NCBI GenBank assembly: GCA_025153445.1
Contig: JANZNS010000004.1
Coordinates: 1-64,000 of the forward strand
Origin: Marinobacter sp. BGYM27
GTDB lineage: Bacteria > Pseudomonadota > Gammaproteobacteria > Pseudomonadales > Oleiphilaceae
Length of the DNA stretch: 64,000 nt
Direction: 5' to 3'
Shown: positions 21,463 to 58,953 of the stretch, piece by piece
Position numbering within the stretch: position 1 is the stretch's first letter
Layout of the letters: each line of letters starts with the position of its first letter
Made by a program: the position numbers and the translations under genes
The notes under the pieces: generated by a model
The model's database searches: none
Seen by the model: the letters and a program-made list of their open reading frames with translations, nothing else
What the model was told of the DNA's origin: nothing

Positions 21463-21639
21463 ATGTACATCTACCGCCTGGTTTTTCTGCTCGTTCTGGC
21501 CGTTTATATTTTCTCGCCCAACATTCTCGACTGGCTGATTCAGCCGGGAACAGCCTGGTACAGTCCTTTTGTTGCCTGGGCGTGTCTGATTGCGGTCGGC
21601 TTCTGGCTCGAATGGCGACGGGATCCAAATGAGTTTTAG
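21463..21639 (+). CDS. cbrX: Small membrane protein CbrX
   Basis: A 58-residue protein with two predicted membrane helices (about residues 4-26 and 33-51) and a charged tail (WRRDPNEF). It lies directly before the cbrA sensor gene and overlaps it by 11 nt. Pseudomonas has a small gene named cbrX of the same size in the same overlapping position, thought to couple translation of cbrA. I infer the same identity from size, topology and place; sequence conservation could not be checked. Confidence 0.8.
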   Translation: MYIYRLVFLLVLAVYIFSPNILDWLIQPGTAWYSPFVAWACLIAVGFWLEWRRDPNEF

Positions 21640-24586
21640 CCTTACGACGCTGATTCTGGTCAGCTTCGGGTATCTGTTGCTGCTGTTTGGTATCGCTCAC
21701 ATTACCGAGCGCGGCATCATCCCCAAGCGCTGGGTACGCCACCCTGTTGTTTATGTGCTGAGCCTCGGCGTCTACGCCGGCACCTGGGCCGTATACGGCG
21801 CGGTCGGTATGGCGGGCGAGTTCGGCTTCGGCTTTATTGCCTATTACATCGGCATCAGTGGCGCCTTCCTGCTCGCGCCGGTATTGCTTAATCCGGTTCT
21901 GCGCATCGGACGCGCCTACCAGTTGACGTCGCTGGCTGATCTTTTTGCTTTCCGCTACCGCAGTCAGTGGGCAGGCACTCTGGTTACCCTGCTATCAGCC
22001 GCTGCCATCCTCTCGCTGCTCAGCATGCAGATCAAAGCCGTTGCGGATTCTGCCGCCCTGCTCTCGCCCCATACCTCGCCTCGTATGGTCGGCATCCTCT
22101 TCAGCGTGGCCATGATCCTGTTTACCGTTTTGTTCGGCGCGCGGCACGAACAAGGCGGCGACAGCCATCAGGGGCTGGTGATCGCCATTGCTTTCGATTC
22201 GCTCGTCAAGCTGTCGGCGTTGTTGCTACTGGGCGCGGTGCTGCTGTATTCGGTTTTCGGTGGACTCTCCGGACTGGATCAGTGGCTTGCATCCACCTCC
22301 TATTCACCCAGCCCGTTTTCCCAACAGCTGAACGACGGCGGTTGGCGTGCCCTTATGCTGATGTCGTTTTCAGCCGTGCTGGTTTTACCCCACATGTACC
22401 ACATGGTTTTCAGCGAAAACCCGAGCCCCAAGGCGCTCGCCAAAGCAAGCTGGGGTTTGCCGCTCTACCTGTTTCTGCTGAGCCTGCCTGTGCCGATCAT
22501 CCTGTGGGGCGGCATTGCACTGGAAGCACCCACAACCGCAAGTTTCTATGCCCTCGGCACTACGTTCTCCCTTAACAGCCCGGCACTGACTCTGGTCATG
22601 TACATCGCAGGCCTGTCCGCCGCCAGCGGCCTGATGATTGTCAGCACCCTGGCGCTTGCGGGCATGGTGCTGAACCATGTGGTGCTGCCGTTGCGCCCCC
22701 CGAGAGAGCAGTCCAACATCTATAGCTGGCTACGCTGGGTCAAACGGCTGCTGGTCGCCATCATCATTTTTGCGTCACTGCTGTTTTATGACTGGGTGGG
22801 ATCACGCCTGGACTTCTCCACGTTGGGTATTCTCGCACTGTCAGGCGCACTCCAACTCCTGCCCGGCGCACTCGCCGTTATTTACTGGCCGGAAGGCAAT
22901 CGGAAAGGCCTGATCGCAGGGTTGTTGGCAGGCGCCGGCGTCTGGATTCTCGGGCTGGTTCTGCCTTTTTCATATGCCCCCGACCTGTTGCACCGACTGG
23001 GATTGCCGGTCGTCGATCCAAGCAACTCGCACATCTACGTGTTTGCGAGCCTTACGCTCAATGTCGTGGTGTTTGCGCTGGTGTCGCTCCTGTCGCGCAC
23101 ATCAAATGAAGAAAGCAGTGCGGCGCAGGCCTGTTCGCTCGGCGCGCTGTCCAGGCCGCGCAGGCGCGAACTGCTATCCGGGTCATCAGAGGAGTTCAAG
23201 CAACAGCTCGCCAAACCGCTGGGCATTGCCGTGGCTCAGCGGGAAATTGACCGTGCCCTGACCCAGCTTCGGTTACCGCCCGTCGAATACCGCCCCTACC
23301 AGTTGCGGCGGCTACGGGACCAAATCGAAGTCAACCTGTCAGGCCTGATGGGGCCTTCTGTAGCCCAGGACATCGTCAAACATCACCTGGGATTCAAACC
23401 CCAGGCCGGACGAGGCTCTGGCCAGGATATCCATTACATCGAAAAGGCGCTGGGAGATTACCAGAGCCAGCTGACAGGTCTTGCCGGTGAGCTGGACAAT
23501 CTGCGTCGGCACTATCGTCAGACCTTGCAAAACCTGCCTATCGCAGCCTGCTCCGTCGGCGACGATGGCGAAATACTGATGTGGAACCACGCAATGGAAA
23601 GGATCACCGGCATCGCTGCCGATGATGTTGTGGGGGCACGCCTGAATGCGCTTCCCGATCAGTGGAACGAGATGCTGGACGACTTCGTCAGCGGCGAAGA
23701 GCTTCACCGGCACAAGCACCGGCTGGACATGAAAGGCCGGCCGCGCTGGTTCAACCTGCACAAGTCCACCCTCAGTGGCCCGGATCATCCGGAAGGCGGC
23801 AACGTCGTGCTGGTGGAGGACCAAACCGAAACCCGGCTACTCGAAGATGAGCTGATGCACAGTGAGCGGCTGGCATCTGTTGGCCGCCTTGCCGCCGGCG
23901 TAGCCCATGAAGTCGGCAATCCGGTCACCGGCATTTCGTCACTGGCACAGAATCTCAAGCTTGAAACCGATAATCCGGACATCCTCCAGACAGCGGATCA
24001 GATTCAGCAACAGACCCGGCGAATTTCCCGTATCCTCCAGTCACTGATGAATTTCGCGCGCTCCGGCAATCATGCCCAGGCCAACCGATACGAGCCGGCG
24101 GTGATCAGGCGCTGCGTGGATGAATCCATTAACCTGGTATCACTCAGCGGGAAGGGGCGCAGCCTCAATTATCAGAACGACTGCCCGGAGGACTTGATGG
24201 TGCTGGGCGACGAGCAGCGCCTGGTTCAGGTTTTTGTTAACCTGCTTGCGAATTCACGCGACGCATCACCGGAAGGCAGTACCATCCGCGTGAGTGGAAA
24301 GCGGGAAGCTTACTCCGCTATCATCGAAGTGATCGATGAAGGTGATGGCATACCCGCAGACCAACTCGACCATATTTTTGAGCCCTTCTATACGACCAAA
24401 GGACCTAACCAGGGCACCGGCCTTGGGCTGGCTCTGGTGTACAGTATCGTGGAAGAGCACTACGGCAACATTCAGGTGGAAAGCCCGGTTTCCGACGCCG
24501 GACAAGGCGGCACGTGCATCCGCCTGAAGCTACCTGCCTATGAAATTGAAGACGACGCCCAAGAGCGTTCCGGAATCGTCGACTGA
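21629..24586 (+). CDS. cbrA: Sensor histidine kinase CbrA with SLC5-like transporter domain
   Basis: A 985-residue inner-membrane sensor. The first about 500 residues form 12-13 hydrophobic helices like a sodium/solute symporter (SLC5), followed by a linking region (STAC-like, about 520-610), a PAS domain (about 635-745), HisKA with the phospho-acceptor in VAHEVGNP, and a HATPase domain with DEGDGIP and GTGLGLA. I use ATG 21629, which overlaps cbrX; an in-frame ATG at 21590 lies deep inside cbrX. In Pseudomonas, CbrA transports and senses histidine and drives CbrB in response to carbon/nitrogen balance. Confidence 0.95.
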   Translation: MSFSLTTLILVSFGYLLLLFGIAHITERGIIPKRWVRHPVVYVLSLGVYAGTWAVYGAVGMAGEFGFGFIAYYIGISGAFLLAPVLLNPVLRIGRAYQLTSLADLFAFRYRSQWAGTLVTLLSAAAILSLLSMQIKAVADSAALLSPHTSPRMVGILFSVAMILFTVLFGARHEQGGDSHQGLVIAIAFDSLVKLSALLLLGAVLLYSVFGGLSGLDQWLASTSYSPSPFSQQLNDGGWRALMLMSFSAVLVLPHMYHMVFSENPSPKALAKASWGLPLYLFLLSLPVPIILWGGIALEAPTTASFYALGTTFSLNSPALTLVMYIAGLSAASGLMIVSTLALAGMVLNHVVLPLRPPREQSNIYSWLRWVKRLLVAIIIFASLLFYDWVGSRLDFSTLGILALSGALQLLPGALAVIYWPEGNRKGLIAGLLAGAGVWILGLVLPFSYAPDLLHRLGLPVVDPSNSHIYVFASLTLNVVVFALVSLLSRTSNEESSAAQACSLGALSRPRRRELLSGSSEEFKQQLAKPLGIAVAQREIDRALTQLRLPPVEYRPYQLRRLRDQIEVNLSGLMGPSVAQDIVKHHLGFKPQAGRGSGQDIHYIEKALGDYQSQLTGLAGELDNLRRHYRQTLQNLPIAACSVGDDGEILMWNHAMERITGIAADDVVGARLNALPDQWNEMLDDFVSGEELHRHKHRLDMKGRPRWFNLHKSTLSGPDHPEGGNVVLVEDQTETRLLEDELMHSERLASVGRLAAGVAHEVGNPVTGISSLAQNLKLETDNPDILQTADQIQQQTRRISRILQSLMNFARSGNHAQANRYEPAVIRRCVDESINLVSLSGKGRSLNYQNDCPEDLMVLGDEQRLVQVFVNLLANSRDASPEGSTIRVSGKREAYSAIIEVIDEGDGIPADQLDHIFEPFYTTKGPNQGTGLGLALVYSIVEEHYGNIQVESPVSDAGQGGTCIRLKLPAYEIEDDAQERSGIVD

Positions 24587-24606: not shown

Positions 24607-26010
24607 ATGCGCCGTATCCTGATCGTAGAAGATGAAGAAATTATCCGCTCCGCGCTACGCAAGCTGCTGATGCACGCGGACTATGATGTGTCAGATGCAG
24701 GCTCGGTTGACGAAGCCCGCACCCGATTCAATCTCGACAATTTCGACCTGATCATTTCAGACCTTCGTCTTCCGGGCGCTGCCGGCACCGAATTGATCCG
24801 GCTGGCTCCCAACACGCCAGTCCTCATCATGACCAGTTACGCCAGCCTTCGATCGGCCGTCGACTCAATGAAACTGGGCGCCGTCGAATACATTGCCAAG
24901 CCGTTCGATCACGATGAAATGCTCGCCTCCGTAGAAGAGATCATCCGACGTAGTGACGGCACAACATCCGATGAAACCGCCTCCGGCCTGCCCGGCGAAG
25001 ACATCGACCAGCATGACGCCGATCCTTCCCGCATCATGTTCGGCGAGTGCAGCGCCATGCAGCGCGTCTTCACCTTGATCCGAAAAGTCGCCCCGACTGA
25101 TACAACCGTACTGATTCAGGGCGAGTCAGGCACGGGCAAGGAGCTGGCAGCCCGGGCACTGCACCAACTGAGCCCGCGAGCTCGACAGCCATTGATCTGC
25201 GTTAACTGTGCAGCCATCCCGGAAAGTCTGATTGAATCGGAACTGTTTGGTCATGAAAAAGGCGCCTTCACCGGCGCAGTATCTGCCCGCACAGGGCTGA
25301 TTGAAGCCGCGGACGGTGGCAGCCTGTTTCTTGATGAAATAGGCGAACTGCCAGCCGAGGCTCAGGCCCGTTTACTGCGGGTATTACAGGAAGGCGAAAT
25401 TCGCAAAGTCGGCTCAACCCAGAGCCGCCAGGTCAACGTGCGGATGATCGCGGCCACTCACCGCAACCTCAAAGCAATGACGCGCACGGGCGAATTCCGG
25501 GAAGACCTTTATTACCGCCTCAACGTCATGCAGGTGCGCATTCCTCCGCTGCGCGAGCGGGATGCCGATATCCTCGGGCTGGCCAGACGCTTCCTGCAGC
25601 GGCAAGCCAAACGTATGGAAAAACCCGGCCTCAGCCTGGCGCCAGACGCTATGCGCCTGATCGAGCGGCATCGCTGGCCTGGCAACGTGCGGGAGCTTGA
25701 GAACGCCATCGAACGGGCCGTCATCCTCTGCGACGACGACCTGATCACTGCATCCTTGCTGGATCTGGACTCGGAAAGCGACGATTACCCTATCCCGGAA
25801 ACACTGCTTGAAGAGGACAACCCGTCCCCGAGTCAGGATCCTCAGGCCACGAACGACCTCTCACTGGAAGATTACTTCCAGCACTTCGTTCTCGAAAACC
25901 AGGACAAGATGAGCGAGACCGAGCTGGCCCAGAAGCTGGGCATTAGCCGCAAGTCGCTGTGGGAGCGCCGGCAACGTCTTGGCATTCCGCGCAAAAAAGC
26001 AGGCACCTGA
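24607..26010 (+). CDS. cbrB: Sigma54-dependent response regulator CbrB
   Basis: NtrC-family activator of 467 residues. The receiver domain (1-120) has the phospho-acceptor aspartate in IISDLRLPG and the conserved lysine in AKPFDHDE. The AAA+ domain (about 140-380) has Walker A GESGTGKE and the sigma54-contacting loop GAFTGA. A Fis-type helix-turn-helix is at the C-terminus (AQKLGISRKSLWERRQRL). It is 20 nt downstream of cbrA. Its expected main target, a sigma54 promoter for a CrcZ-like RNA, lies about 300 nt downstream. Confidence 0.96.
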   Translation: MRRILIVEDEEIIRSALRKLLMHADYDVSDAGSVDEARTRFNLDNFDLIISDLRLPGAAGTELIRLAPNTPVLIMTSYASLRSAVDSMKLGAVEYIAKPFDHDEMLASVEEIIRRSDGTTSDETASGLPGEDIDQHDADPSRIMFGECSAMQRVFTLIRKVAPTDTTVLIQGESGTGKELAARALHQLSPRARQPLICVNCAAIPESLIESELFGHEKGAFTGAVSARTGLIEAADGGSLFLDEIGELPAEAQARLLRVLQEGEIRKVGSTQSRQVNVRMIAATHRNLKAMTRTGEFREDLYYRLNVMQVRIPPLRERDADILGLARRFLQRQAKRMEKPGLSLAPDAMRLIERHRWPGNVRELENAIERAVILCDDDLITASLLDLDSESDDYPIPETLLEEDNPSPSQDPQATNDLSLEDYFQHFVLENQDKMSETELAQKLGISRKSLWERRQRLGIPRKKAGT

Positions 26011-26036: not shown

Positions 26037-26174
26037 TCCGCCGCCCCCCATTCCGAACAACACCGCAGTACCGCTTCTCTCGCCCGCCATCAACGTGTGC
26101 AATTGTCGGTCCGAATATCGCAGCCCCCTCAGCTATTCGAATCCTGGCCATAAACAAATGAATCAACTTTCAAC

Positions 26175-26233
26175 TGTTACCGCACGTTACCTCAGGGAAC
26201 AGCCTTGGTCTGAAAAGTGAGATCCAAGTAACA
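26175..26233. promoter_or_regulatory. Candidate CbrB upstream activating elements
   Basis: TGTTAC (26175-26180) is followed after 15 nt by GGAACA (26196-26201), one mismatch from GTAACA, and an exact GTAACA lies at 26228-26233. A further GTTACC is at 26185-26190. As I recall, CbrB sites in Pseudomonas are inverted TGTTAC/GTAACA half-sites. These lie about 100-160 nt before the predicted start of the small RNA, the usual distance for a sigma54 enhancer. Confidence 0.55.
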
Positions 26234-26307
26234 CTTTCGTATAAAAACAGTCTCTCGGTAAACCCGTATATTTCGTAAATCACTGTTAATAAAGAACTAA
26301 TAAAAAC

Positions 26308-26323
26308 TGGCACACGCAATGCA
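26308..26323 (+). promoter_or_regulatory. Sigma54 promoter of the CrcZ-like RNA
   Basis: TGGCAC-ACGCA-ATGCA carries the invariant GG (26309-26310) and GC (26321-26322) separated by exactly 10 nt, matching the -24/-12 consensus TGGCAC-N5-TTGCA with one change in the -12 box. Transcription should begin about 11-14 nt after the GC, near 26333-26336. It lies downstream of a sigma54 activator gene, with candidate activator half-sites further up. Confidence 0.8.
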
Positions 26324-26332
26324 ATCTTATTG

Positions 26333-26716
26333 GGGTGAACAACAACAAGAATTGAATGACGCAGCGTCAAAAACAAAAACAAAAAGCTGCAATGCGCTCA
26401 GCAACAAAAACAAGAATTGAGCGCGAGCGAACTGAGTGTTTTGGGTGCTGGGCTTTTTAGTGGTACCTGACTGTTGCGAGTTGCACATGTAGATAAGAAT
26501 CGTCTTCCAGACGCCGCTATATTTGCTCCAATCTCGTGAAAAGTCATTGTCACTCTATGTGGTCAAAGCGTTCCGCTCGCATCATTCGCTCTCAACCTGG
26601 AGCCATGCTCTAAAAATTTGAGAGCTTACGTCCCCACTTTCGGGATGTGCCACAACAACAAAAATGCAGATCGTCTACTCTTCTCGGCGGGTTCGTGATT
26701 CACGATCCCGCCTTTT
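26333..26716 (+). ncRNA. crcZ: CrcZ-like small RNA (Hfq/Crc decoy)
   Basis: No credible gene occupies this 940-nt gap between cbrB and pcnB; instead a sigma54 promoter feeds a stretch of about 384 nt ending in a strong terminator. It holds four A-rich CA-motif clusters of the AANAANAA type at 26338-26351, 26369-26386, 26403-26416 and 26654-26664, two of them followed by the same AGAATTGA. In Pseudomonas, CrcZ (about 400 nt, same locus, same sigma54/CbrB control) uses such motifs to sequester Hfq with Crc and relieve catabolite repression. The 5' end is predicted, not measured. Confidence 0.82.
26686..26716 (+). terminator. Intrinsic terminator of the CrcZ-like RNA
   Basis: GGCGGG (26686-26691) pairs with CCCGCC (26707-26712) and an inner TCGT/ACGA stem closes a small loop; TTTT follows at 26713-26716. 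This is a classical Rho-independent terminator and defines the 3' end of the RNA, well before pcnB. Confidence 0.88.
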
Positions 26717-26951
26717 GATTTTCTGGGCCAGACGTTTTCTGTCAGGCGAAGAACAGGCCTTCATCGGATAGAACTTCACCCCTGTTCATTTTCCACCTGC
26801 CCTTGGCACAGGCATCGCCCGCGCGGTTTGAGTTCTGCGGTTCGCCTTCCCCGCCACAAAACGTTAAACTCCCGTCCTGACTGTGAGCAAAGACGGCTCA
26901 ATGCCGCACAGACTCACTGGCCACCCGACGCATTCATCAGAACTGGTCTAG

Positions 26952-28304
26952 ATGCTAAAAAAAATCATGTCCTATATGCCCGGGAAGGGCAGAAAAAAAC
27001 AACAGCCGACTTATCAGCGACAGGTCATCCCCCGGGACCAACATACGGTATCCCGCTCGCTGATCAGTGAACCCGCCAAAAAAGTGCTGAGCCGACTCAA
27101 CAACGCCGGCTTTGAAGCTTACCTGGTGGGCGGCGGTGTCAGGGACATACTGCTCAACGGCCGCCCGAAAGACTTCGACGTGGCCACCAACGCCACGCCG
27201 GAAGAAGTCCGGGACCTGTTCCGAAATTCTCGCATGATCGGACGGCGGTTCCGCATCGTCCATGTTCTGTTTGGCCGCGAAATTATCGAAGTCACCACCT
27301 TTCGCGGTAATGCAACAGAAGCCGAAGACAGCAGCGATGACCAGCGCCGCGCCAGCGAGCACGGCCTGCTGTTGCGCGATAATGTATATGGCAGCATGGA
27401 AGAAGACGCCCTGCGCCGGGACTTTACCGTCAACGCGCTCTACTACTCGCTTGAAGATTTCAGCGTTATCGATTTTACCGGTGGCGTAGACGATCTTAAC
27501 AATCGCCGCCTGACACTGATCGGGGATCCCGAAACACGCTACCGGGAAGACCCTGTGCGAATGCTTCGAGCGGTGAGATTTGCGGCCAAACTCGATTTCA
27601 GCATTGCCCCTGACACAGAAGCCCCTATCCAGACATTGGCGCCATTGCTGACGCACGTGCCCTCAGCGCGCCTGTTTGAAGAAGTTCTGAAACTGTTTTC
27701 TGCCGGTTATGGCGCAAAGACTTACGAGCTGCTGACCCAATACGGACTGCTGGCGCCGCTGTTCCCTGCTACCGCTGCGGCCATCGCAAACGGCGAACCC
27801 GATGACTTGATCCGCCGCGCGCTGGAGAATACGGACAACCGCATTCATCAGGGCAAGTCAGTCACACCTTATTTCCTCTATGCAGCGCTTCTTTGGCCCG
27901 CGTTGCAGGCCGAGTGGCAGCGACGTCAGGATAATGGTGAGCCCGCACAACCGGCGCTCCACCAGGCCATCGGCAAGGTAATCGGCCAGCAGGTTCAGGC
28001 TACCGCAATCCCCCGTCGCTTCTCAGGCCCGATGAAGGAAATCTGGGAACTGCAGATGCGACTGCCTCGCCGGAATGGCAAACGAGCACTTGTCACGCTC
28101 GAACATCCCCGCTTCCGCGCTGCGTACGACTTCCTGCTGGTCAGAGAAGCTGCCGGCGAAACCAACGAAGGCCTGGGTGAGTGGTGGACCGACTTCCAGA
28201 AAAAAGATGAAAAAGGCCGTGAGCGTATGCTGTCAGAGCTCGCGCCAAGTGGCCCAAAGAACCGGCGGCGCAAGCGCAAAAAGCCGGCAACGCCAAAGGA
28301 CTGA
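26952..28304 (+). CDS. pcnB: Poly(A) polymerase I
   Basis: Adds 3' poly(A) tails that promote RNA decay. The 450-residue protein has a basic N-terminus, the nucleotidyltransferase signature LVGGGVRDILL with KDFDVAT providing the metal-binding aspartates, the bacterial PAP region RRFRIVHV, and an arginine-rich C-terminal tail (NRRRKRKK) typical of PcnB rather than of CCA-adding enzymes. It lies 235 nt downstream of the CrcZ-like terminator and 6 nt upstream of folK. A possible second sigma54-like site at 26804-26818 precedes it. Confidence 0.96.
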   Translation: MLKKIMSYMPGKGRKKQQPTYQRQVIPRDQHTVSRSLISEPAKKVLSRLNNAGFEAYLVGGGVRDILLNGRPKDFDVATNATPEEVRDLFRNSRMIGRRFRIVHVLFGREIIEVTTFRGNATEAEDSSDDQRRASEHGLLLRDNVYGSMEEDALRRDFTVNALYYSLEDFSVIDFTGGVDDLNNRRLTLIGDPETRYREDPVRMLRAVRFAAKLDFSIAPDTEAPIQTLAPLLTHVPSARLFEEVLKLFSAGYGAKTYELLTQYGLLAPLFPATAAAIANGEPDDLIRRALENTDNRIHQGKSVTPYFLYAALLWPALQAEWQRRQDNGEPAQPALHQAIGKVIGQQVQATAIPRRFSGPMKEIWELQMRLPRRNGKRALVTLEHPRFRAAYDFLLVREAAGETNEGLGEWWTDFQKKDEKGRERMLSELAPSGPKNRRRKRKKPATPKD

Positions 28305-56667: not shown

Positions 56668-57384
56668 ATGCGACCCAGTGGCAGAACGCCTGAGCAACCG
56701 CGCGACATCCGCATCACCCGCAATTACACCAAACATGCGGAGGGGTCAGTCCTGATCGAATTTGGCGACACCAAAGTGATCTGTACTGCATCGATCGAAA
56801 ACAGTGTGCCCCGCTTCCTCAAGGGCACAGGCAAAGGCTGGATTACCGCCGAATACGGCATGCTGCCGCGCTCAACCGGCAGCCGCATGGGCCGCGAAGC
56901 CGCTCGCGGCAAACAGGGCGGGCGCACGGTAGAGATCCAGCGTCTGATCGGTCGATCCCTGCGTGCTGCGGTTGATCTGACCAAGCTTGGCGAGCACAGC
57001 ATCACGATCGATTGCGACGTGATTCAGGCGGATGGCGGCACCCGTACTGCTGCTATCACCGGCGGCTGCGTCGCCCTGGTCGATGCCCTGAACCACCTGG
57101 TCAGCACCGGCAAACTGAAAGCATCACCACTGGTACAAATGGTCGGCGCAATTTCGGTCGGCGTATTCGAGGGCACAACCGTTGTCGACCTGGATTACCC
57201 GGAAGACTCCGCTGCCGAAACCGATATGAACGTTATCATGACGGACCGCGGCGGCTTCATCGAGATTCAGGGTACGGCGGAAGGTGCGCCTTTCGACCAG
57301 ACAGAACTGGACAGCATGCTGAGTCTGGCCAAGCAGGCCATTAACCAGCTGTTCGAACTGCAGAAAAAAGCGCTCGAAAGCTAA
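56668..57384 (+). CDS. rph: Ribonuclease PH
   Basis: Phosphorolytic 3'-5' exoribonuclease that trims tRNA precursors. The 238-residue protein has [49 protein letters not shown] with the catalytic aspartates, and DLDYPEDS. Full length and intact, unlike the frameshifted gene in E. coli K-12. TAGGAAACC precedes the ATG. Convergent with crc, as in Pseudomonas. Confidence 0.97.
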
Positions 57385-57427: not shown

Positions 57428-58234
57428 TCAAAATCCTATTTCAATATCATAATCAACGATTACCGGCGCATGGTCCGAGAATCGTGTAGCCCCATCAATC
57501 CAGGCATCTTCAATTGCCTTGCGAATGCCCGGCGTGACCAGTTGATAGTCCGTCCGCCAGCCCGCATGACGGCGCCAGCCCTCAGCCCATTCAGGCCACC
57601 AGGTAAATTGATCACCGCTTTTATTGATTTCACGGAATGCATCCACGCACCCCATTTCATCAAACAGGCGATCCAGCCAAGCCCTTTCATGCGGTAGAAA
57701 GCCGGACACATCGAGCTTGTGGTAGCGGGCGCTGGTGTCGGTTACGTGATGCGCCGTTTGCAAATTGGCACAGAAGATAAACTGTCGACGCTTGCGCAGC
57801 GTTTTCTGGAGGTGCATACCGAAAGCTTCCAGAAAGCTGTCTTTATGATCCAGCGCGGTCAGATCATCATCGCCAATTGGCACGTCTTCGCGCCCCAAAG
57901 CACTCGGAGCCAGCGCACAGGCCACACTGACCTTGTCAAAATCAGCCTGAATAAAGCGGCCTTCGCGGTCAGCCTGTTCATTGGCGAAACCGTAGATAAT
58001 CGCTTTCGGGAAATGACGGGTGTAGATGCCGACGCCACCGTGCTCGGTGTCCTCACCGTCTATAAAGTAGGGTTCATAGCCTTCGGGGACATATCGCGGG
58101 TCATCAAATTCATAGATCCGCATGCGGTGATCCTGCACGCAAACCACGTCTGCATCCTGCTCGGCCAGCCAGTCAAAAAAACCACGGTCAACCGCCTGCT
58201 TGAGACCGTTAACACTGATTGATACTACCCGCAT
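57428..58234 (-). CDS. crc: Catabolite repression control protein Crc
   Basis: A 268-residue member of the exonuclease III/EEP fold. Nuclease residues are altered: the metal-binding glutamate of LQET is Asp (CVQDHR, D35) and the GDxN motif reads CANLQ, while SDHAP is kept. The same losses define Crc, which has no nuclease activity and stabilises Hfq on A-rich mRNA sites. Position between rph and pyrE is the position of crc in Pseudomonas. AGGGAA precedes ATG 58234. The alternative, an active ExoIII, fits neither the residues nor the context. Confidence 0.92.
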   Translation of the reverse strand: MRVVSISVNGLKQAVDRGFFDWLAEQDADVVCVQDHRMRIYEFDDPRYVPEGYEPYFIDGEDTEHGGVGIYTRHFPKAIIYGFANEQADREGRFIQADFDKVSVACALAPSALGREDVPIGDDDLTALDHKDSFLEAFGMHLQKTLRKRRQFIFCANLQTAHHVTDTSARYHKLDVSGFLPHERAWLDRLFDEMGCVDAFREINKSGDQFTWWPEWAEGWRRHAGWRTDYQLVTPGIRKAIEDAWIDGATRFSDHAPVIVDYDIEIGF

Positions 58235-58314: not shown

Positions 58315-58953
58315 ATGCACCACTATCAGCACGATTTTATAGAATTTGCCATTCGCCGCGATGTTCTTCGCTTCGGCGAGTTCACGCTCAAGTCTGGCAG
58401 AACCAGCCCCTACTTCTTTAATGCAGGCCTGTTTAACCAGGGATCAGACCTCGTTCAGCTCGGTCAAGCCTATGCTTCAGCCTTGCAAAATAGCGGCCTG
58501 AATTATGACATGCTGTTCGGACCTGCCTATAAGGGCATTCCGTTGGCAGCCGCGACTGCCATCGCACTCGCCCAGTCCGATGATGACCGCCCCTATGCGT
58601 TCAATCGCAAGGAGAAAAAGGATCACGGCGAGGGCGGACAGATCGTCGGCGCACCGCTACAGGGCAAAGTCCTGATTGTCGATGACGTCATCACCGCCGG
58701 CACCGCCATCCGTGAATCCATCGATATTATCCGGGCCGCCGGAGCAGAGCCCGCGGGCGTGCTGATTGCCCTTGACCGCCAGGAGCGTGGGCAGGGCAAA
58801 CTGTCCGCCATTCAGGAAGTCGAGAACGAGTTTGGGCTGCCGGTTATCAGCATTATCCGCCTCGAGCAGGTTATCAGCTACCTCAACAAAAGTGCTGACT
58901 TTTCTGAAAATGCCCGCCAAGTTGCCGAATATCGGGAAAAGTACGGCATCTGA
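58315..58953 (+). CDS. pyrE: Orotate phosphoribosyltransferase
   Basis: Converts orotate and PRPP to OMP in pyrimidine synthesis. The 212-residue protein has [42 protein letters not shown] and the PRPP-binding loop [17 protein letters not shown]. Standard length. Divergent from crc with 80 nt between starts; no attenuator hairpin or leader peptide was recognised, so the rph-linked attenuation known in E. coli does not apply here. Confidence 0.97.

Follow-up and report, generated by a model that had tools for sequence, protein, structure and literature searches.

A probable CrcZ-type RNA between cbrB and pcnB in Marinobacter, and the occurrence of its layout in the order Pseudomonadales

In Pseudomonas, the RNA CrcZ sequesters proteins that would otherwise prevent less-preferred nutrients from being used. 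Like CrcZ, other A-rich Hfq ligands carry ARN repeats fitting the Hfq distal face, and they are not expected to have synteny, promoter or core in common with the RNA described here. CrcZ of P. aeruginosa is described as a 407-nt RNA with six A-rich stretches, of which the three in its first 151 nt give three Hfq shifts (PMC4063720). CrcY and CrcX of some Pseudomonas, and CrcY of Azotobacter, are described as Hfq/Crc-antagonizing RNAs of the same kind (PMC8871633, PMC6292655). The CbrB subsites reported for P. putida comprise a forward TGTTAC and two reverse subsites of the GTAACA type, with centers 20 to 25 bp apart (PMC6296734). The CbrAB system has been called unique to Pseudomonadaceae in a review (PMC8871633) or, in the wording of another paper, exclusive of pseudomonads (PMC6296734). 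A marine metatranscriptome paper, matched by CbrB together with Marinobacter, reports cbrAB transcripts and, in the parts of its text considered here, no Crc (PMC5073097). Among open-licence PMC papers we found none joining CrcZ with Marinobacter or with Alcanivorax, and a report elsewhere is possible. As traits of a CrcZ-type RNA we considered a position immediately downstream of cbrB, a sigma54 promoter with CbrB-type sites upstream, multiple A-rich (AANAANAA or ARN) stretches, a core of sequence and structure common to Pseudomonas CrcZ, and the presence of Hfq and Crc in the genome.

Here, we describe a predicted CrcZ-type RNA on the + strand at 26333..26722 of a window of 64,000 nucleotides (positions 1 to 64,000 of contig JANZNS010000004.1 of Marinobacter sp. 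BGYM27), its start placed from a sigma54 element and its end from a terminator. The RNA would begin ~320 nt after the cbrB stop, and pcnB is the next gene downstream. Directly upstream of cbrB lies a cbrA-like sensor kinase (21629..24586, +; Pfam, scanned from 21632), with ~600 N-terminal residues that have no Pfam match, followed by PAS, HisKA and HATPase_c domains; its start was taken as the first ATG of the frame. A short hydrophobic frame overlapping this start (21463-21639, +) resembles cbrX, a gene described upstream of Pseudomonas cbrA (PMC8871633). The product of cbrB (24607..26010, +) is a sigma54-activating response regulator by Pfam, with 64 to 67% identity, among the matches listed, to rows of family f20, which we infer to be Pseudomonadaceae, and its C-terminal motif LSLEDYFQHFVLENQDKMSETELAQKLGISRKSLWERRQRLGIPR is seen across the order where C termini were compared. 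The downstream synteny anchor pcnB (26952..28304, +) encodes a poly(A) polymerase (TIGR01942, 530 bits, over the cut-off). The order cbrB-RNA-pcnB is observed in 6/6 genomes of the genus and is the same in six named Pseudomonas loci and in Stutzerimonas. A first-pass annotation of this DNA had seen no convincing gene in the gap, in agreement with which no + strand ORF of at least 60 aa lies between 26162 and 26827; a - strand frame of 70 aa (26170-26382) overlaps the start of the RNA interval.

A sigma54 promoter at the start of the interval and a terminator at its end had also been proposed, and candidates for both are found. The -24/-12 element TGGCACACGCAATGC (TGGCAC-N6-TGC, GG-N10-GC) is located at 26308..26322 (+), and a sigma54-like element is also present in 5/5 other genomes of the genus. 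Further upstream on the same strand are a CbrB-type forward subsite TGTTAC (26175..26180; consensus from PMC6296734), a possible reverse subsite GGAACA (26196..26201) with one mismatch to GTAACA, and a reverse subsite GTAACA (26228..26233). The spacings are 21 and 32 bp, the second exceeding the described 20 to 25 bp. By sequence match, therefore, the RNA has a putative sigma54 promoter with CbrB-type sites upstream. IHF-like sites in the same region are one-mismatch matches only, against an IHF consensus. At the other end, a hairpin with an interrupted T tract, GGCGGGTTCGTGA-T-TCACGATCCCGCC-TTTTGATTTT, is predicted by folding at 26686..26722 (+); a simple terminator scan gave no call there.

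The terminator bears on another explanation, in which the stretch belongs to the pcnB mRNA as a long 5' leader, not a free decoy, and its clusters recruit Hfq to control that gene. The stretch does lie directly upstream of pcnB, and two loci of family f8 (L147 and L148) and one of genome G320 (L152) have the RNA beside pcnB with cbrB elsewhere or not found. However, the hairpin is kept in 5/5 other genomes of the genus and ends the RNA 230 nt ahead of the pcnB start, the clusters are distant from that start, and the sigma54 and CbrB-type sites correspond to what has been described at crcZ, which together make a leader very unlikely in our judgment.

On the + strand of 26333-26716 we observe four clusters of the AANAANAA type, as reported at first pass: cluster 1 (26338..26351, a run of 5 ARN triplets), cluster 2 (26369..26385, 6 triplets), cluster 3 (26403..26416, 6 triplets counting from 26400) and cluster 4 (26654..26664, 4 triplets). 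The window RNA thus contains multiple A-rich stretches, four against the six described for P. aeruginosa CrcZ, three of them within the first 85 nt and the last toward the 3' end; a fifth cluster at 26299 is located upstream of the sigma54 element. Loss of the clusters from relatives with the same gene order, which would have spoken against a CrcZ-like RNA, is not observed: in 6/6 genus genomes, counting the window's own, the gap from cbrB to pcnB retains four clusters after the sigma54 element. The RNA region folds better than 100/100 shuffles (z -3.6). The clusters have a mean predicted unpaired probability of 0.90 versus 0.60 for other A, and the value is higher for clusters in 176/176 non-identical RNAs, many of them closely related and with A-rich runs tending to be unpaired anyway.

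Such clusters could also represent chance A-richness of an AT-rich intergenic region that gives no RNA. The G+C content of the interval (0.47) is indeed below that of the window (0.56), in 22/191 gaps the cluster count was reached by more than 2/200 shuffles, and some gaps have equal or near-equal clusters on the opposite strand (L122, 5 and 5; L103, 6 and 4). Yet four clusters were reached by only 3/5000 dinucleotide shuffles of 26333-26716, and elsewhere in the window, on both strands, any 340-base stretch beginning at a cluster has at most two. In 169/191 gaps, a set that includes some loci fetched twice, the count was reached by at most 2/200 shuffles, and 187/191 reach a sigma54 score of 14.5 or more. 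The G+C-rich Halomonas gaps L187, L190 and L191 (0.62 to 0.63) keep 7, 8 and 7 clusters against shuffle means of 0.4, 0.1 and 0.1. In addition, a layout defined as a sigma54 score of 16 or more followed, within 420 nt, by three or more clusters occurs 0 times in 1,513,044 control bases (the remainder of the named loci on both strands, and the opposite strand of the gap), and stems are kept through paired changes, as set out below. Chance is accordingly close to negligible as an explanation.

The first-pass annotation suspected that a family model built on Pseudomonas may miss this RNA and suggested a search with the Rfam CrcZ model, RF01675. The model aligns full-length at 26345-26745 with 33.1 bits (E 3.5e-6 in a 5-kb scan, 6.7e-7 in the genome search), the best place in the genome, the next-best having 13.4 bits (E 0.38). 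As the gathering cut-off of 95 bits is not reached, the window RNA is not filed under RF01675 as thresholded; this cut-off is a curation setting and not a biological trait. A second CrcY/CrcX-like copy in the window genome was considered and rejected, since the next RF01675 match has only 13.4 bits and our core model R1 (see below), in a draw of the class, gave one place in this genome; CrcY and CrcX are extra copies, whereas the window genome has no significant second match to RF01675. At E 0.1, RF01675 finds all six genomes searched in the genus, with scores from 33.1 bits in the window genome, the lowest, to 58.9 bits. In a draw of 151 genomes of the family, which includes the genus, 140 match at E 0.01 and 0/151 are above the cut-off. 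Control genomes gave 0/14 matches at E 0.01 in the family-draw search, 5/14 at E 0.1 and 9/14 at E 10, so weak matches to RF01675 alone mean little, because controls also match at looser thresholds. Those of 22 to 29 bits in the search of the order, several of them partial, were not counted as CrcZ by themselves.

The full-length alignment is at odds with the first-pass impression that the sequence between the clusters seems unrelated to known RNAs, as is a core common to Pseudomonas CrcZ at 26427..26589 (+), delimited from alignment A2 and its pair counts. As in Pseudomonas, this is an AACTGA-UUUUGG core with a long-range partner, and in the window its long-range helix pairs 26434-26444 with 26562-26573. 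The window RNA has a GCTTTTTAGTGG element after the core start, in contrast to the aligned Pseudomonas rows. A2 contains 29 sequences (18 of the family, 2 of f2, 1 of f34 and 8 Pseudomonadaceae-type), taken from 30 extracted rows after L103, with its shorter core, was dropped and the tails of seven rows were trimmed. For the 20 predicted pairs, 94.1% of cells are paired versus 34.1 to 45.6% when slid, a G-U to U-A exchange occurs in 11 rows, and the covariation score was reached by 0/500 shuffles. The count of pairs changed on both sides was reached by 161/500 shuffles and that of further pair types by 477/500.

Ahead of the core, where the structure line of the RF01675 model also has a hairpin with an A-rich loop, folding predicts the hairpin GCGCTCA / TGAGCGC (26394..26424, +) with cluster 3 in its loop and with paired changes in the family. 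Its six pairs were evaluated in 21 family sequences, chosen from 41 rows by leaving out L005 and L006 (repeats of L004) and 18 rows of other arm lengths (Hahella-type, Halospina-type, f2, Pseudomonas and others). Here 99.2% of cells are paired versus 13.5 to 47.6% when slid, 4/6 pairs are changed on both sides, and the covariation score was reached by 0/500 shuffles; 44/500 reached the count of doubly changed pairs and 498/500 that of further pair types. For core and hairpin alike, the covariation score, the share of paired cells and the number of doubly changed cells are above those of all 500 shuffles, for structures derived from the very sequences on which they were tested. With the same limit, a core of sequence and structure common to Pseudomonas CrcZ is found (A2). 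Because the core helix and the cluster 3 hairpin are kept through paired changes, the window RNA appears to be homologous to CrcZ beyond a similar layout. The repeated module AGAATTGA, which had been proposed from the bases following two clusters, is not conserved: after cluster 1, five relatives in the genus have AGAACTGA, and the bases after cluster 3 are a stem arm that changes with its partner.

A model derived from the locus itself had been suggested as a further check, and R1, built on the core, does find it in genera outside its training set: family genus g4 (L054 and L062-L064) at 77 to 91 bits and f20 genus g140 (L137) at 81 bits. The window row, which belongs to the training set, scores 142.4 bits. 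On 76 sources, R1 finds the window's family, f34 and g140 of f20, with weak matches in L079 (22 bits), L082 (16 bits) and L147 and L148 (15 bits), and gives no match in the Halomonadaceae-type loci L097-L100, L178, L189 and L199, in Oceanospirillum (L184, L220), in Alcanivorax (L195, L224) or in most other families. We therefore rejected it as a detector for every family, and homology in the families that R1 does not find rests on architecture; for Halomonas and allied loci, a paired motif seen by pattern in 43/43 loci adds a further basis. Run on 369 genomes drawn from across the class, R1 gave six matches, strong only in the window's own genome and one of f20, the other four (20 to 26 bits) being probably chance; three listed genomes of the order, from f35 and f36, had none. 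Weak matches of R1 on the opposite strand were disregarded as reflections of the self-complementary core.

The partner genes are also present. A probable crc orthologue lies at 57428..58234 (-), flanked by rph (56668-57384, +; TIGR01966) and pyrE (58315-58953, +; TIGR00336), the neighbors that crc has in Pseudomonas also. Its best PDB match is 4jg3, which we take to be P. aeruginosa Crc; the two best matches (253.7 and 253.1 bits) carry the name catabolite repression control protein, 2myi in third place (248 bits) carries that of exodeoxyribonuclease III, and the next has 151.1 bits. The protein is over the cut-off of NCBIfam TIGR00633 (xth), and a possible loss of the exonuclease III catalytic motifs was judged by eye only. 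Residues aligned to R138-R141 of P. aeruginosa Crc read RKRR. For P. aeruginosa, mutation of R138-R141 is reported to abolish the contribution of Crc, and R140E and a quadruple patch mutant to leave no more repression than a crc deletion does (PMC9890229). The window genome encodes RpoN and Hfq, so that Hfq and Crc are both found, and Hfq has 6 differences from that of P. aeruginosa in residues 1-71, among them F at position 25, where P. aeruginosa has Y. A Y25D mutant of P. aeruginosa Hfq is described as defective in CrcZ binding (PMC4063720).

These genes help to weigh a further possibility, an A-rich RNA that binds Hfq alone, as a sponge or base-pairing sRNA, with no role in Crc action or catabolite control. 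ARN runs are reported to bind the Hfq distal face by themselves (PMC4063720), and the core at 26427-26589 could serve something besides presenting A-rich clusters. Against this, the genome has crc, next to rph and pyrE and with its basic patch, and CbrB-type sites with a sigma54 element stand upstream both here and in most relatives, and we regard an Hfq-only RNA as improbable.

Instead, we consider it very probable that 26333-26722 is a CrcZ orthologue, driven by CbrB and sigma54 and sequestering Hfq/Crc, its decoy function being drawn by analogy from Pseudomonas. It shares with Pseudomonas CrcZ (RF01675) the position after cbrB, the sigma54 and CbrB-type promoter sites, several A-rich clusters and a similar length. 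On exhaustion of preferred carbon, CbrA/CbrB would activate sigma54 RNA polymerase at 26308-26322 via the upstream TGTTAC/GTAACA sites, giving a transcript of ~390 nt that would end at the hairpin ahead of pcnB. The four A-rich clusters, predicted to be single-stranded and one of them in a hairpin loop, would engage Hfq hexamers at their distal face, along with Crc, so that Hfq/Crc would be drawn off catabolic mRNAs and catabolite repression lifted, as in P. aeruginosa. Counted against orthology are an RF01675 score below the gathering value and lowest in the genus, numbers of doubly changed pairs and further pair types that are not unusual among shuffles, four clusters in place of six, F at Hfq residue 25, the 32-bp second site spacing, the one-mismatch IHF-like sites and a terminator unreported by the simple scan. 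The main idea of the first-pass annotation, a CrcZ-like RNA outside Pseudomonas, has good support from the gene order, the promoter sequence, the A-rich clusters, the partner genes and the paired changes, its statements on unrelated sequence and a repeated module being those that failed. The coordinates of the locus give an exact site for deletion.

Across the whole genome, long AAN runs are scarce. A 17-nt pattern (five AAN followed by AA) occurs at 2 places in 4.03 Mb, one of them cluster 2; the other (L234, G000:C15:120899) is inside a long open frame of 858 codons that reaches the end of the locus, in AT-rich surroundings. A 14-nt AAN pattern matches 17 times, with overlaps, at 15 places, of which 3 are inside this RNA; a reversed-pattern control is uninformative here, the pattern being symmetric. 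Three of the 14-nt runs, at genes named by eye, mark candidate Hfq/Crc targets from their position. Two lie 31 nt ahead of a gene start, one for a peptide-transporter-like ATPase (L250) and the other for a Tat-signal protein (L251), and the third is close to where an acyl-CoA-synthetase-like gene starts (L240). As few of the 12 places outside this RNA are near or just before start codons, and in view of the lack of a control, we make no claim on mRNA targets.

L004, the locus of another genome of the genus, recurs without a single difference inside that of Marinobacter halodurans YJ-S3-2 (L155; Marinobacteraceae of NCBI). In the order, 304/390 genomes and 117/142 genera have a CbrB match at E 1e-120, those near this value possibly being paralogues, and outside the family the identity is 60 to 67% among the matches listed. 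RF01675 matches 72/390 genomes of the order at E 1e-3, with 19 over the cut-off, 16 of these in f20 and 3 in f2. A Crc match at E 1e-50 is present in 281/390 genomes, a count blurred by exonuclease III paralogues, and we therefore claim no correlation of co-occurrence with Crc. We sampled 100 regions from 98 genomes, hand-picked among the matches listed, 67 placed on a cbrB match and 33 on an RF01675 match. The layout defined above is present in 84/100 (53/67 and 31/33, respectively) and in 22/24 sampled families, f4 and f9 being represented by a single region each, with two clusters. Among named loci (the best 80 of 566 confirmed), 76/80 have the layout, with the genera Marinobacter, Hahella, Halomonas, Oceanospirillum and Pseudomonas; those without it are L173 and L216, on short contigs, and the Alcanivorax loci L195 and L224. 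This distribution corrects the literature statement of exclusivity to Pseudomonadaceae.

We think it likely that the CbrAB-CrcZ-Hfq/Crc switch is ancestral to the order Pseudomonadales in the GTDB sense and has been kept by its architecture (CbrB sites, sigma54 element, A-rich clusters and pcnB as neighbor), while much of the RNA sequence has turned over beyond family models and has in places been elaborated into tandem arrays and very long decoys of ~20 clusters. Such an RNA may keep its job via a repeated short binding motif and a promoter as its other sequence escapes curated models. If the window RNA works as CrcZ, the main carbon-preference switch of Pseudomonas would be spread over the order, including Marinobacter, a genus of hydrocarbon degraders, and Halomonas, industrial halophiles, in both of which carbon catabolite control has practical weight.

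Several loci depart from the common arrangement. In f8, the layout is present in 0/5 cbrB-side regions (L092-L096) and in 2/3 RF01675-match regions, both adjoining pcnB (L147 and L148): the CrcZ-like RNA is upstream of pcnB and cbrB elsewhere, ~187 kb away in G329, with TGTTAC and GTAACA still preceding the RNA in L148. In G320 of f36 (L152), the RNA adjoins pcnB and a gene that looks gluQ-like by eye, with no cbrAB between them; the RNA has a sigma54 element followed by eight clusters, without exact TGTTAC or GTAACA, and this genome is absent from the CbrB matches at E 1e-120. The two Alcanivorax loci have A-rich clusters and TGTTAC/GTAACA and no clear sigma54 element between cbrB and pcnB, and both genomes have RpoN. 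Other gaps are enlarged. In L080, L082 and L084 (f38), and also in L076 and L116, the gap between cbrB and pcnB contains from 2 to ~4 successive groups of a CbrB site and A-rich clusters, reaching 18 clusters in 2.1 kb in L080; these look like tandem arrays of decoy RNAs, with strict sigma54 matches in only one or two groups, and an open frame of ~130 aa is also located in the gaps of L080 and L084. Finally, downstream of cbrB in L091 (G177, f28), a single sigma54 element is followed by 21 A-rich clusters in ~750 nt, possibly a very long decoy RNA.
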